Of a DNA stretch of 32,565 bases, positions 798 to 13,681 are shown one piece after another. The position numbers and the translations under genes are program-made. Source of the DNA: a bacterium. Its GTDB lineage: Bacteria; Patescibacteriota; Minisyncoccia; JAHIHE01; JAGLIN01. Numbering within the stretch: position 1 is the first letter of the stretch; every line of letters begins with the position of its first letter. The notes under the pieces are model-generated. The model made no database searches. It was not told where the DNA came from and saw only the letters and a program-made list of their open reading frames with translations. The stretch is taken from positions 1-32,565 of the forward strand of contig DAOWDU010000009.1 of the NCBI GenBank assembly GCA_030638825.1, in the 5' to 3' direction.

Positions 798-917
798 TTC
801 TACGGCGCTTTAGCGCACGGTCATAGAGGTTTTAACCTCGCGAGAAAAGAATTGTTTTATTGAGCTAAGTTTTGCGAGGTTAAAACCTCTGTGACCCTCA
901 GCTAAAGCTGGGTAGAA
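798..917. repeat. Nested palindromic element between porB and znuA
   Basis: A 120-bp element. Outer arms are TTCTAC (798-803) and GTAGAA (912-917). Two 23-bp arms, 819-841 and 874-896, differ at one position and centre on AGAGGTTTTAACCTC; they enclose a 32-base AT-rich loop. A small palindrome flanks each side, GCGCT-TT-AGCGC (805-816) and CAGCT-AA-AGCTG (899-910). The layout is that of a MITE-like or REP-like mobile palindrome. It has no U-tract, so it is not an ordinary terminator. A related GGTTTTAACC core occurs at 11361-11374. Confidence 0.7.
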
Positions 918-2140: not shown

Positions 2141-2899
2141 ATGTCAACCTCAAAAATCCTCACAATCAAAAACCTTTCTTTCGCTTATCAGAAAGAAAAC
2201 AACATTCTGGAGAATATAAATCTGGAAGTTTTTGGTAATGATTTTTTGGGTGTTATCGGTCCTAATGGCGGAGGGAAAACAACGCTTTTAAAAATAATTC
2301 TTGGACTTTTGAAACCTGACGAAGGAAGCGTTGCGGTATTTAATAAAAAACCAAAAGAAGCGAGAGATTTAATTAGCTATGTTCCCCAATTTTTAGAAAT
2401 TGATTTGGATTGTCCAGTAAGTGTTTTGGATATTGTTTTAATGGGAATCTTAAACCGCAAGAAAATATTTCAAAAATATAACGAGCAGGATTTTAAATTA
2501 GCAAAAGAAGCTTTGGAATTTGTGGATGTCTATAATTTAAAAAATAAGCAAATTGGCGAATTATCTGGCGGACAGAGACAAAGGGTTTATATTGCCCGCG
2601 CTTTAATTAGAAAACCGAAACTGCTTATTTTAGATGAACCAACTGCCAGCATTGATGAAAAATCAGAAAGAGAGTTTTGGGAATTGCTAAAAGAGATAAA
2701 TAAAAATTCCGCGATTATTATTGTCTCTCATGACATTGGCGTTATTTTTAAGAATGTAAATAAAATCGCTTGCTTAAATAAAAATTTATATTGCCACGAC
2801 GCTACTGAAATAACTTCTGAAATTTTAGATAAAACTTATAAATGCGATATTGAATTATTGGGACATGGGTTGCCTCATCGGGTTTTAAAAAAACATTAA
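2141..2899 (+). CDS. znuC: Metal ABC transporter ATP-binding protein (ZnuC-like)
   Basis: 252 residues. The cytoplasmic ATPase that powers zinc/manganese uptake with the permease at 2950-3759. All ABC motifs are intact: Walker A GPNGGGKTT (40-48), Q-loop VPQF (81-84), signature LSGGQ (141-145), Walker B LLILDE (161-166), D-loop SID and H-loop His197 in VSHD. The C-terminal GHGLPHRVLKKH is His-rich, as often seen in metal-family ATPases. The start is ATG at 2141 in an A-rich context without a clear Shine-Dalgarno sequence. It is separated from znuB by 50 bases that contain a 29-bp palindrome. Confidence 0.93.
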   Translation: MSTSKILTIKNLSFAYQKENNILENINLEVFGNDFLGVIGPNGGGKTTLLKIILGLLKPDEGSVAVFNKKPKEARDLISYVPQFLEIDLDCPVSVLDIVLMGILNRKKIFQKYNEQDFKLAKEALEFVDVYNLKNKQIGELSGGQRQRVYIARALIRKPKLLILDEPTASIDEKSEREFWELLKEINKNSAIIIVSHDIGVIFKNVNKIACLNKNLYCHDATEITSEILDKTYKCDIELLGHGLPHRVLKKH

Positions 2900-2905
2900 A
2901 ACGCC

Positions 2906-2934
2906 GTAGAGACGAGGCACTGCCTCGTCTCTAC
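2906..2934. repeat. 29-bp palindrome, intergenic copy
   Basis: Perfect 14-base arms, GTAGAGACGAGGCA (2906-2919) and its reverse complement (2921-2934), around a single central C. It lies between znuC and znuB with no following U-tract. The copy at 4246-4274 has identical arms and differs only in the central base (T). Confidence 0.9.
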
Positions 2935-2949
2935 ATCGGTAAATTTTTT

Positions 2950-3759
2950 ATGGAAATACTTACCTACAACTTCTTCCAAAACGCCCTCCTCATCGGCATT
3001 CTCGCCAGCATCGCTTGCGGGATCATCGGTCCTTTTGTTGTGGCGAAAAAAATTTCTTTTCTAAGCGGAAGTATCGCCCACTCTTCTTTTGGCGGAATTG
3101 GGATGGCTTATTTTTTAGGATTTAACGCGCTAATCGGCGCAGGTATTTTTAGTATTTTATCGGCTTTAGGAGTTGGCATTATCAGCAAAAAGTTCAAAAA
3201 AAATGAAGATGCAATTATCGGGGCAATGTGGTCTTTGGGAATGGCAATCGGATTAGTATTTATTTATTTAACCCCAGGCTATAGCGCGGATTTATTTAGT
3301 TATTTATTCGGTAATATTCTAATAACAAGCTCCGCTGATCTGATTTTGGCAGTTGTTTTAAATATTATAATCATTACCAGCGTCTTCGCTTTTTACCGCT
3401 GGTTCACCGCAATTATCTTTGACGAAGAATTCGCCGAAGTAACAAACATCGCCGTTTTCCCGATTTATTTATTTTTGTTGTGTTTAGTCGCTTTGACAAT
3501 AGTTATTTTGATTAGAATTGTCGGTGTAATTTTAGTTATTGCCTTGCTTACTTTACCTGCTGCCACAGCCCAGACTTTTAATAAGACTTTTAAAAAAATA
3601 ATTCTCTACTCAATTTTATTCGGCTGTATTTTTACAACAGCAGGAATATTTTTATCTTATTATTTAAATCTGCCATCAGGACCAATGATTATTTTCACGG
3701 CGGCTTTTGTTTATGTGGGATTTTTGATTGGTAATAAATTTACTTTAAAAAAATTATGA
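2950..3759 (+). CDS. znuB: Metal ABC transporter permease (ZnuB-like, ABC-3 family)
   Basis: 269 residues, almost wholly hydrophobic with about eight membrane segments, matching the ABC-3 permease family. It forms the membrane channel for the metal delivered by the binding protein at 971-1819. Recognisable stretches are the early ACGIIGPFVVAKKISFLSGSIAHSSFGGIG (18-47), which carries the conserved loop contacting the ATPase, and the later VGVILVIALLTLPAATA. The TGA stop overlaps the ATG of the phosphoesterase (ATGA at 3756-3759), so the two are translationally coupled. Confidence 0.92.
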   Translation: MEILTYNFFQNALLIGILASIACGIIGPFVVAKKISFLSGSIAHSSFGGIGMAYFLGFNALIGAGIFSILSALGVGIISKKFKKNEDAIIGAMWSLGMAIGLVFIYLTPGYSADLFSYLFGNILITSSADLILAVVLNIIIITSVFAFYRWFTAIIFDEEFAEVTNIAVFPIYLFLLCLVALTIVILIRIVGVILVIALLTLPAATAQTFNKTFKKIILYSILFGCIFTTAGIFLSYYLNLPSGPMIIFTAAFVYVGFLIGNKFTLKKL

Positions 3760-4631
3760 ATCCCAAAAACATTAAAAGAAAACGATTCAAAAAACTATTT
3801 CTGTTATTAGCTTTTTTAATTTCTTTAATAACTTTATTTTATTACAGTTTTGTTTTTGAACCAAACAATATTCAAATTGAAAAAATAAATATTGAAATAA
3901 AAAATTTGCCAGAAGAGTTTGAAGGAACAAAAATAGTTCATCTTACTGATTTTCATTCTAGAAACTTTGGCAAAAGAGAAGAAAGAGTCTTAAAAATTTT
4001 AAAAGATTTAGATCCAGATTTTGTTTTTATCACCGGAGATTTTATTGATCATTCCACTAAAGATTTAGATTCCTGCCAAAAATTCTGGCGAAAATTAAGC
4101 AACCAACATCAAGGAAAAGTTTTTGGTGTTTTAGGAAATCATGAACACTGGCTTAAATCTCCGGATATTTCTGCGATAAAAAGAATGCTAGAAAGAAATG
4201 GCATTTCTATTTTGAATAATGAAAACAGAAAAATATATCTCGGAGGTAGAGACGAGGCATTGCCTCGTCTCTACATTTATTTAATCGGTGTTGACGATCC
4301 TGATTCGGAATTAGACGACTTGCCAAAAGCGATGATTGATACAGAAGAAAATATCCCCAAAATTTTATTAGCGCATTCGCCAGATATTATTGATAATTTA
4401 CAAGGAAAAAAAGTAGATTTAATTTTAGTGGGACATACACACGGCGGACAAATTGTCCTTCCCTTTGTAAAACCATTTTGGGTTCCCACAAAAAACCGCG
4501 GCAAATACGCCAGCGGTTTGTTTGAAGTTAATGATACTTATTTATATGTCAATCGCGGAATTGGCTTAGCTCCAACTCTCCCAGCAAGATTTAACTGTCC
4601 ACCTGAAATTACGGTGATAGAATTAAAATAG
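3756..4631 (+). CDS. Membrane-anchored metallophosphoesterase (YkuE-like)
   Basis: 291 residues. One N-terminal membrane segment (about 13-32) is followed by a calcineurin-like phosphoesterase domain with the full di-metal set: LTDFH (Asp65, His67), TGDFID (Asp95), GNHEHW (Asn128, His129), AHSPD (His207) and GHTHGGQ (His227, His229). YkuE-type enzymes act on phosphoesters at the membrane; the substrate here is unknown. The start overlaps the znuB stop, so it is expressed with the metal transporter, which may simply supply its metal cofactor. Residues 164-173 (GRDEALPRLY) are encoded exactly by a 29-bp palindrome, an in-frame insertion between two predicted strands that leaves the active-site motifs untouched. 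Confidence 0.85.
   Translation: MNPKNIKRKRFKKLFLLLAFLISLITLFYYSFVFEPNNIQIEKINIEIKNLPEEFEGTKIVHLTDFHSRNFGKREERVLKILKDLDPDFVFITGDFIDHSTKDLDSCQKFWRKLSNQHQGKVFGVLGNHEHWLKSPDISAIKRMLERNGISILNNENRKIYLGGRDEALPRLYIYLIGVDDPDSELDDLPKAMIDTEENIPKILLAHSPDIIDNLQGKKVDLILVGHTHGGQIVLPFVKPFWVPTKNRGKYASGLFEVNDTYLYVNRGIGLAPTLPARFNCPPEITVIELK
4246..4274. repeat. 29-bp palindrome inserted inside the phosphoesterase frame
   Basis: Same arms as 2906-2934 (14 of 14 bases), centre T instead of C. It sits inside an intact coding sequence and supplies ten residues without a stop or frameshift. Confidence 0.9.
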
Positions 4632-8449: not shown

Positions 8450-8489
8450 ATAGTCGTAGGGGCAGGTCGCGACCTGCCCCTACGACTAT
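8450..8489. repeat. 40-bp perfect palindrome between divergent clpC and the 8698 gene
   Basis: Two perfect 20-base arms, ATAGTCGTAGGGGCAGGTCG (8450-8469) and its reverse complement (8470-8489), without a spacer. It is GC-rich in an AT-rich gap. Its left end contributes to the TATAAT in front of clpC. The GTAGGGGCAGGT core resembles the GTAGAGACGAGG core of the copies at 2906 and 4246. Confidence 0.9.
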
Positions 8490-11432: not shown

Positions 11433-11897
11433 ATGGACAATAAAAACCAAGCTATAAAATTCGCTATCAAACTTTTAAGCATCAGAAAGAGATCTGTTTT
11501 TGAGATGAGGAATAGGTTAAAACGGAAAGAATTTGGGAATGATGTGATAGATGAAGTTATTAAAGAATTGTTTGAATATAAATATTTAAACGATGAAAAG
11601 TTTGCGGAAGCGTATATTAATGACAGAATCAATTTCAATCCAAGAGGGAGTTTTTTAATTAAGAAAGAACTGAGAGAAAAAGGCGTCGCGGAGAATATTG
11701 TTGATCAGAAAATAAAAGAATTATTTCCTGAAGAAAAAGAAATAGAATTAGCGAGAAAAGCGGCAGAAAAGAAAATGGGGACTTTAAATAAAGATCTAGA
11801 AAAAAATAAAGTTTACCAAAAAGTCGGCGCGTATTTGCAAGCGAAAGGATACACGAGTTATATTATTCGGGAAGTGTTATCACTGTCATTGCAATGA
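11433..11897 (+). CDS. recX: RecX-family regulator of RecA
   Basis: 154 residues from ATG at 11433. RecX binds RecA filaments and limits recombination and the SOS response. The three-helix-repeat pattern is visible: AIKLLSIRKRSVFEMRNRLKRKEF, then VIDEVIKELFEYKYLNDEKFAEAYINDR with the YLNDEKFA signature, then RGSFLIKKELREKGV and a final repeat ending in LQAKGYTSYIIREVL. An in-frame GTG at 11415 would add six residues, but it overlaps the palindromic element, so the ATG is preferred. The stop overlaps the vanW-like start (ATGA at 11894-11897). recA is not in the window. Confidence 0.85.
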   Translation: MDNKNQAIKFAIKLLSIRKRSVFEMRNRLKRKEFGNDVIDEVIKELFEYKYLNDEKFAEAYINDRINFNPRGSFLIKKELREKGVAENIVDQKIKELFPEEKEIELARKAAEKKMGTLNKDLEKNKVYQKVGAYLQAKGYTSYIIREVLSLSLQ

Positions 11898-13681
11898 CAA
11901 TAAATCTAATTTCAAAAATGCCGAAAATAAACAAGCCAACAAAAATAATTATTTTATTTACAACGCTAATCGCGATAGTTATTTTTGTAATTGTAATATA
12001 TTTTAATTCTATTTACACAGATAGAATATTCCCAAATGTTTTTATAAATAACGAGGATTATTCGGGACTGACAAAAGAGGAAGCGTTTTTTAAATTGGAG
12101 AACAAAATAAAAAATGTTTATCAGGACGATTTTGCTTTTACTTACGAAGATGATATTTTCAAAACGATAGTTTTAGAAACAGGAATAGTGATAGATATAA
12201 ATAAAACAATCAACAGCGCTTTTTCTTATGGGCATCATGAAAATATTTTACAAAGCCTTAAAGAACAAACCGGTTTAATAAATAAAAATAAAAATCTTCA
12301 GGTGAAAATTATTATAGACGAAAAAAAGCTTGAGAGTTATATTCAGAAAGAATTATCAGAAATAGAAACCCCGCCTAAAAACTTTGGCTACAATTATGCT
12401 AATGAAAAATTTACTCCGACAGTTCCAGAATCAGGGATCATAATAAATAGAAGTAAATTAAAAAAAGATATTATTGAAAATTTATTTGAGTTAAAAAATG
12501 ATGATCTAAAAATAGAATTAGTAGTAAAAGAAGCGGAAGTAAAAGAGGATTTGAATAATAGAGCATTTACTCAAGCTAACAATTTGCTCCATAGAAAAGT
12601 AACTTTAAAATATAATTCAGACGAGTTTGAAATTCAAAAAGAAGATCTTGCTTTATGGATTAAATTTGATGCTATAGATAATGACGACAATAAAAATAAA
12701 AGAATCCTTGGCATAATGTCTGATGACGAAAAAATAAAAGACTATCTTTTGATTTTTATCGTTCCGCAAGTAAACCGCGAACCCGTCAACGCCCAGCTTG
12801 AATATGAAAATAAAAAAGTTGAAGTTTTTTCATTAAGCTACGAAGGAGTTTCTCTTGAAATTGAAAAAAGTAGAGATGAAATTTGCGCAGATGTTTTTAA
12901 GAAAGAGAATTACGAGGAATTAGAAATAGAAACGGAACTTGGTTCTGGGTACCCAGAACCAAGTTCCGTTTCTATTTCTAATATTGAAATTCCCCTAATC
13001 ACCAAAAAAATCCAGCCAGAAATCACAATTGAAAGTATAGATAATATGGGAATAACCGCGCTACTCGCGACAGGAGAATCAAATTTTTACGGATCGCCAA
13101 GAAATAGAATCCATAACATCACAGTCGGCGCAAGCAAGTTCCACGGGATTTTAATCGGTCCAGAAGATGAATTTTCATTCAATAAAGTTTTAGGAAAAGT
13201 CGGCGCGAAGCAAGGATACCTTCCTGAATTGGTTATAAAAAAGGGTGTAACCACGCCAGAATACGGCGGCGGATTGTGCCAGGTTTCAACAACCGCTTTC
13301 AGAGCCGCGGTTAGCACGGGACTGGAAATCACCGAAAGGAAAAATCACGCTTATCCCGTGAAATATTACAACCCGCAAGGAACAGACGCGACTATTTATC
13401 CCCCGCATCCCGATTTAAGATTTAAAAACAACACGCCAGCCTACATTTTAATCCAGACTAGAATTAAGGGAAATAAATTATATTTTGATTTTTACGGATC
13501 CGACGATAAACGCAAAGTTGTTTTGACTGGTCCTTATATTTACGACAAAAAAACAAGTGGCGCGATGAAAGCGACCTGGACACAGGAAGTTTACGACAAA
13601 GACGGCGAGCTAGAATTTAAAGAAATTTTCTACAGCAATTATAAATCACCTGCGCTGTATCCAAGAGGAACGCCATTGTGA
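11894..13681 (+). CDS. VanW-family membrane protein with PG-binding-like domains
   Basis: 595 residues. A short basic N-terminus and one membrane helix (about 17-36) place the rest outside the cell. Residues about 45-330 look like two YoaR-type putative peptidoglycan-binding domains (LTKEEAFFKLE and similar). Residues about 385-545 are the VanW domain: SNFYGSPRNRIHNITVGASKFHG, GPEDEFSFNKVLG, GGGLCQVSTTAFRAA and RKNHAYPV. VanW proteins occur in vancomycin-resistance clusters, but most members are cell-envelope proteins of unknown activity, and no resistance gene is nearby. It overlaps recX by four bases. Residues 342-363 are encoded by a 64-bp perfect palindrome in the linker before the VanW domain. 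Confidence 0.85.
   Translation: MTINLISKMPKINKPTKIIILFTTLIAIVIFVIVIYFNSIYTDRIFPNVFINNEDYSGLTKEEAFFKLENKIKNVYQDDFAFTYEDDIFKTIVLETGIVIDINKTINSAFSYGHHENILQSLKEQTGLINKNKNLQVKIIIDEKKLESYIQKELSEIETPPKNFGYNYANEKFTPTVPESGIIINRSKLKKDIIENLFELKNDDLKIELVVKEAEVKEDLNNRAFTQANNLLHRKVTLKYNSDEFEIQKEDLALWIKFDAIDNDDNKNKRILGIMSDDEKIKDYLLIFIVPQVNREPVNAQLEYENKKVEVFSLSYEGVSLEIEKSRDEICADVFKKENYEELEIETELGSGYPEPSSVSISNIEIPLITKKIQPEITIESIDNMGITALLATGESNFYGSPRNRIHNITVGASKFHGILIGPEDEFSFNKVLGKVGAKQGYLPELVIKKGVTTPEYGGGLCQVSTTAFRAAVSTGLEITERKNHAYPVKYYNPQGTDATIYPPHPDLRFKNNTPAYILIQTRIKGNKLYFDFYGSDDKRKVVLTGPYIYDKKTSGAMKATWTQEVYDKDGELEFKEIFYSNYKSPALYPRGTPL
12919..12982. repeat. 64-bp perfect palindrome inside the vanW-like gene
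   Basis: Thirty-two bases (12919-12950) are followed directly by their exact reverse complement (12951-12982), centre GGGT|ACCC. The inner part reads GGAACTTGGTTCTGGGT on each strand. It is in frame and stop-free, coding an acidic segment ending ETELGSGYPEPSSVSISN. Confidence 0.95.

Follow-up and report, generated by a model that had tools for sequence, protein, structure and literature searches.

The window analysed here, a stretch of 32,565 nucleotides of bacterial DNA, contains two copies of a 29-base palindrome, GTAGAGACGAGGCANTGCCTCGTCTCTAC, hereafter F1, at 2906-2934 and 4246-4274. Their 14-nt arms are identical and the copies differ at the central base alone (C/T). Both the positions and the identity of the arms, with which the original prediction began, proved exact on re-checking, and the number of such palindromes expected by chance is 0.00 in dinucleotide-preserving shuffles. 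The first copy (2906..2934) occupies the gap between a znuC-like ABC transporter ATPase gene (2141..2899, + strand), named from the original prediction and from its sequence motifs, and a znuB-like ABC transporter permease gene (2950..3759, + strand), which has a 90% identical stretch in the relative G016. This copy folds into a hairpin whose stem has 13 bp and whose loop has 3 nt, and is the sole intergenic F1 found in the genome. The second (4246..4274) also folds as a hairpin and lies in frame in a gene for a calcineurin-like metallophosphoesterase (3756..4631, + strand; Pfam PF00149), whose best NCBIfam model is YaeI-type, under the cut-off. It is read as G|RDEALPRLY, spanning nine complete codons and two of the three bases of a glycine codon. 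PDB searches with the phosphoesterase, and with a transposase-like protein discussed below (contig C50), returned no useful relative.

Other repeats are found in the same window. An intergenic palindrome at 8456..8483, GTAGGGGCAGGTCGCGACCTGCCCCTAC or F2, is a sister double-foot REP (repetitive extragenic palindrome); its eight genome copies are mostly intergenic, with one in elp3 and one in frame inside the C50 gene for a REP-associated tyrosine transposase (RAYT). A BIME-like inverted dimer spans 798..917 and, judged by eye, resembles both the repeats flanking the RAYT gene of contig C27 and the repeat at the znuC-znuB junction of G016. Separately, a perfect 64-bp palindrome (12919-12982) sits in frame in a VanW-like gene (11894-13681, named from sequence). 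Its 34-nt core has five copies in the genome, two in frame (ETELGSGYPEPSS type) and three intergenic, and none in the five relatives searched.

Searching the whole genome with the 14-nt arm gave 25 matches (13 forward and 12 reverse, allowing up to one mismatch), while a degenerate consensus of the complete palindrome, with up to three mismatches, retrieved about 16 near-identical copies. In most of them both arms are still identical. All but one of the 16 (~94%) lie within ORFs, and every one of these is read through. The picture of one intergenic and one in-frame copy, from which the original prediction was drawn, thus holds within the window, while the balance across the genome is 1:15. Host families were assigned by Pfam and NCBIfam profile scans, the surface-type protein of contig C57 lying outside the Pfam scan. 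Many of the hosts are core genes. Those with names are elp3, recO, valS, mutM (twice), nifS and miaB; others encode an O-antigen ligase, a FemAB protein, an Eco57I-like methylase, a nucleotidyltransferase-like protein (a weak match) and the phosphoesterase. Three hosts are surface-type proteins, including those of C14, C21 and C57; the copies in C14 and C21 are probably one insertion, given their near-identical surrounding sequence. Eleven of the genic copies are read in the VETR[QH]CLV-type frame and four in the RDEALPR-type frame, the third frame having a TAG stop. As a side observation, a segment of some 40 residues encoded in the nucleotidyltransferase-like gene (L046:1835-2929), FHSPVRAVEPRMQDLHMRCHSSAETMAPSDD, has many matches across this genome and in another, G002.

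Comparison with orthologues shows several of these sites in their empty form. The phosphoesterases of G003 (81% identical) and G010 (74%) lack the insert, having FQGGK-YIYL and FQGDE-FIYL, respectively, where this genome has YLGGRDEALPRLYIYL. The more distant orthologues of G007 and G004, aligned over the site, are also without it. Neither distant orthologues with the ten residues but no palindrome nor a lack of further copies, either of which would have told against the original prediction, was encountered. Ten residues is the correct figure for the length covered by the palindrome, but the net gain against G003 and G010 is seven residues, or 21 nt. Six more F1 sites have empty orthologues in relatives, with net gains of 27 nt in nifS, 18 in the FemAB gene, 21 in valS, 18 and 21 in mutM and 27 in the O-antigen ligase gene. 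Since these gains are all multiples of three and never 29, flanking bases must also have been lost or gained, or the loops of the relatives altered; the variable net length (18-27 nt) and the approximate placing of the insertion junction count against the explanation preferred below. The nifS insert aligns to a gap of 8 residues in a cysteine desulfurase of known structure. Together with the many further copies, the empty orthologues bear out the view of F1 as a dispersed small palindrome that enters genes in frame.

In miaB, F1 occupies the place of a longer variable stretch in relatives, while in elp3, recO and the O-antigen ligase gene the loops of relatives hold other, unrelated in-frame repeats at several sites, and the znuC-znuB junction of G016 has a different repeat dimer. 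On this sequence evidence, the F1 loops and the znuC-znuB junction look like repeat-accepting sites. Among elp3 orthologues (L102-L110), it was also observed that two Elp3 loops have differing inserted stretches in most relatives and that some of these resemble other repeat families (PPLLQRG/PPFAKGG and SPDRAVEP types).

Stem pairing in F1 was scored over 29 gene-internal sequences drawn from this genome and its relatives: 93.9% of the stem cells pair and in seven pairs both sides have changed, a level of pairing above all shuffled and slid controls, although the figure is inflated by relatedness and by the choice of F1-like sequences.

Four RAYT-like genes were found in the genome, on contigs C23, C27, C41 and C50. 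They match the REP-associated tyrosine transposase model, although none reaches the curated NCBIfam cut-off, which counts against the assignment. For comparison with the subclass 2.4 motif set (NH[IFV]H, WQ and YIxNNP), C23 has NHIH, WQ and YIFENP, C50 has NHLH, WQ and YIFENP, and G016_C59 has NHIH, WQ and YVRNNP; the MLNHLH of C50 departs from the strict NH[IFV]H, again to the detriment of the assignment. REPs set in frame between the HuH and Y motifs of RAYT genes have been described (PMC6006769), and the same arrangement is seen in C50 (F2), C23 (a REP dimer), G001_C86 and G009_C23. A distinct palindrome, GAAGGCGACATTCGCGAATGTCGCCTTC, occurs in frame within the C41 RAYT-like gene (L048:2351-2956) and again upstream of it; the HuH motif of this gene appears degenerate.

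It is in relatives that F1 itself is linked to such genes. In G016, from the same order, an F1 dimer of 86 nt lies in frame within a RAYT gene on contig C44 and a second dimer follows closely after the gene, although only part of this gene is present, at the end of the contig, which weakens its testimony. The RAYT genes of G001, of the same genus, and of G009 have close relatives of F1 flanking them on both sides as well as inside. Adjacency to a RAYT gene is therefore seen for F1 in G016 and for its close relatives in G001 and G009, but not for F1 here. The RAYT clade linked to F1 was not found in this genome with a query shortened across the internal repeat, which also counts against the preferred explanation; the repeats found in the C50 and C23 RAYTs are different ones, and these two RAYTs are only about 50% identical to that clade. 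In a small RAYT tree G016_C44, G001_C98, G009_C23, G010_C31 and G001_C86 were grouped with moderate support (81/88).

These data allow the element to be placed. F1 is a single hairpin with GTAG at the 5' end and CTAC at the 3' end, and 16 copies are dispersed through the genome; by sequence, it answers to what has been described as a double-foot GTAG REP linked to RAYT/TnpA_REP subclass 2.4. Double-foot REPs are a feature of that subclass and may be what remains of an inverted dimer after loss of its central part (PMC6006769). With them F1 shares the GTAG foot, complemented at the 3' end, the RAYT linkage and the occurrence of REPs between HuH and Y in RAYT genes. It differs from them in being nearly always in frame in unrelated, often core, genes, and in that the RAYT linked to it is found in relatives and is absent from the finds here. 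GTAG-tagged REPs, intragenic ones included, have also been described in PMC3733652, where most REPs are intergenic and some lie in ORFs, often of DNA-repair genes and in places twice in one gene; cyanobacterial families are among those covered. F1 is like these in being a short GTAG palindrome with copies in ORFs, among them the DNA-repair genes mutM (twice) and recO, and unlike them in its overwhelmingly genic location. Because intragenic REPs are reported there, the usual description of REPs as mainly extragenic, which F1 does not follow, is taken as descriptive rather than defining. We assign F1 to the REP class because of the GTAG foot at both ends and the physical linkage to RAYT genes in relatives: it is a known kind of element, a REP-type hairpin, in an unusual location, namely genes. 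The RAYT belongs, like the transposase of IS200/IS605, to the Y1 HuH superfamily; unlike IS200/IS605, F1 codes for nothing and would move in trans.

The explanation that we consider very probable is that a subclass 2.4 RAYT/TnpA_REP single-strand transposase disperses F1, as a double-foot GTAG REP, in trans, the genic copies being tolerated. It rests on the copy number, the in-frame location, the empty sites, the paired changes in the arms and the RAYT linkage in G016. The transposase would mobilise the hairpin as a single strand. RAYTs of other groups have been shown to cleave their cognate REP and to carry out strand transfer, and the cut made by TnpA_REP enzymes of other groups falls at a CT close to the hairpin (PMC8266576); F1 has such a CT in its CTAC end, which is suggestive only. 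The double-foot form itself may have arisen from an inverted dimer through central deletion. As the 57 nt by which the 86-nt dimer exceeds the 29-nt unit are divisible by three, collapse of a dimer within a gene would keep the frame, an argument from arithmetic rather than proof. An insertion into a gene would survive where the frame stays open, as it does in two of three frames (giving VETR[QH]CLVST or RDEALPRLY), where the net change in length is divisible by three and where it falls in a loop tolerating extra residues, loop position being the presumed cause of the tolerance. Copies would then persist by vertical descent while their arms remain matched.

A plausible, though less favoured, reading is that the copies are old relics, F1 being immobile here, its intergenic copies decayed and its genic ones held by the constraint on frame. 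The failure to find the F1-linked RAYT clade in this genome points that way, as do insertions common to other genera (those in recO and the O-antigen ligase gene among them) and the state of F1 in G010, where copies are more degenerate and only three of 14 are genic. Set against it are the identical arms of most copies here and the slow divergence of the repeat: at orthologous sites within the genus, with the rows for the first mutM site left out, F1 differs at 0-5 of 29 bases, as against 23-34% at the surrounding third codon positions. Copying between repeats or correction of one arm by the other would explain this low divergence, with selection as an alternative. The description of F1 as an active element in the original prediction is not upheld, many insertions being common to relatives and no very recent pair of filled and empty sites having been found.

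The original prediction likened F1 to the Rickettsia palindromic elements (RPEs), and the likeness stands as far as behaviour goes: these too are small palindromes lying in frame in many genes, and double insertion of repeats into one gene also occurs in R. conorii (PMC3733652). It does not extend to family, given the GTAG feet and the linkage to RAYT genes in relatives. The intragenic repeats RPE-4 and RPE-6 of R. conorii are of the CGTC class (PMC3733652), whereas F1 ends in GTAG/CTAC, and RPE-1 is longer, the elements being set apart here by their descriptions. That F1 is a Rickettsia-type element in a CPR genome, unrelated to REPs, is accordingly improbable. Still less probable is it that the inserts are selected protein features, binding loops for example, with the palindrome a by-product and no mobile DNA involved. 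The recurrence of one peptide in many proteins might suggest this, but two open frames give two different peptides, common to unrelated proteins, orthologues do without the insert, one copy is intergenic and changes on one side of the stem are matched on the other. That the finding comes from misassembly or contamination, for which a 57-contig draft with 3.9% estimated contamination might give grounds, can hardly be credited when the same sites recur with diverged flanks in separate genomes and a public Patescibacteria contig has exact F1 in frame in its ligA.

That contig, JAHJJO010000089.1 (locus L252, a ligA-like gene), bears on the distribution of the family. Across 74 genomes, F1 is present in this genus, in four other genera of the family and in one other family of the order, and was not found in the rest of the class sampled. 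We call the lineage CPR-like, the word of the original prediction, with exact F1 on named Patescibacteria contigs. IMG/VR viral contigs gave no match to F1 or to the wider pattern. Among the matches listed for the wider superfamily in GTDB genomes, none of 56 cyanobacterial loci was genic in the same kind of test, and some Chloroflexi and Patescibacteria loci were.

Within this genome the genic share is 15 of 16 for F1 as against two of eight for F2 (Fisher P 0.0013). The excess of genic F1 has P ~0.0005 if the frame is set by chance and 0.087 if all insertions have lengths divisible by three; since the value depends on the model, we do not claim a preference for genes. The bias may reflect either such a preference or loss of intergenic copies. 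A more speculative idea, to which we give only limited credence, is that the F1 lineage is now mainly genic, entering or persisting in coding sequence more easily than in intergenic DNA, with copies inside genes rewritten in concert, both arms together, and so renewing extra loops in core proteins.

Our literature searches of open-licence papers found no description of REPs for this small-genome lineage, where the partnership of RAYT and REP is several families deep. The unusual feature is that a 'repetitive extragenic palindrome' is here ~94% intragenic: REPs have been treated as extragenic, whereas the F1 family lies nearly always in frame in conserved genes. It thereby serves as a natural test, open to counting, of the places in which RAYT-linked hairpins can land and of what proteins tolerate.
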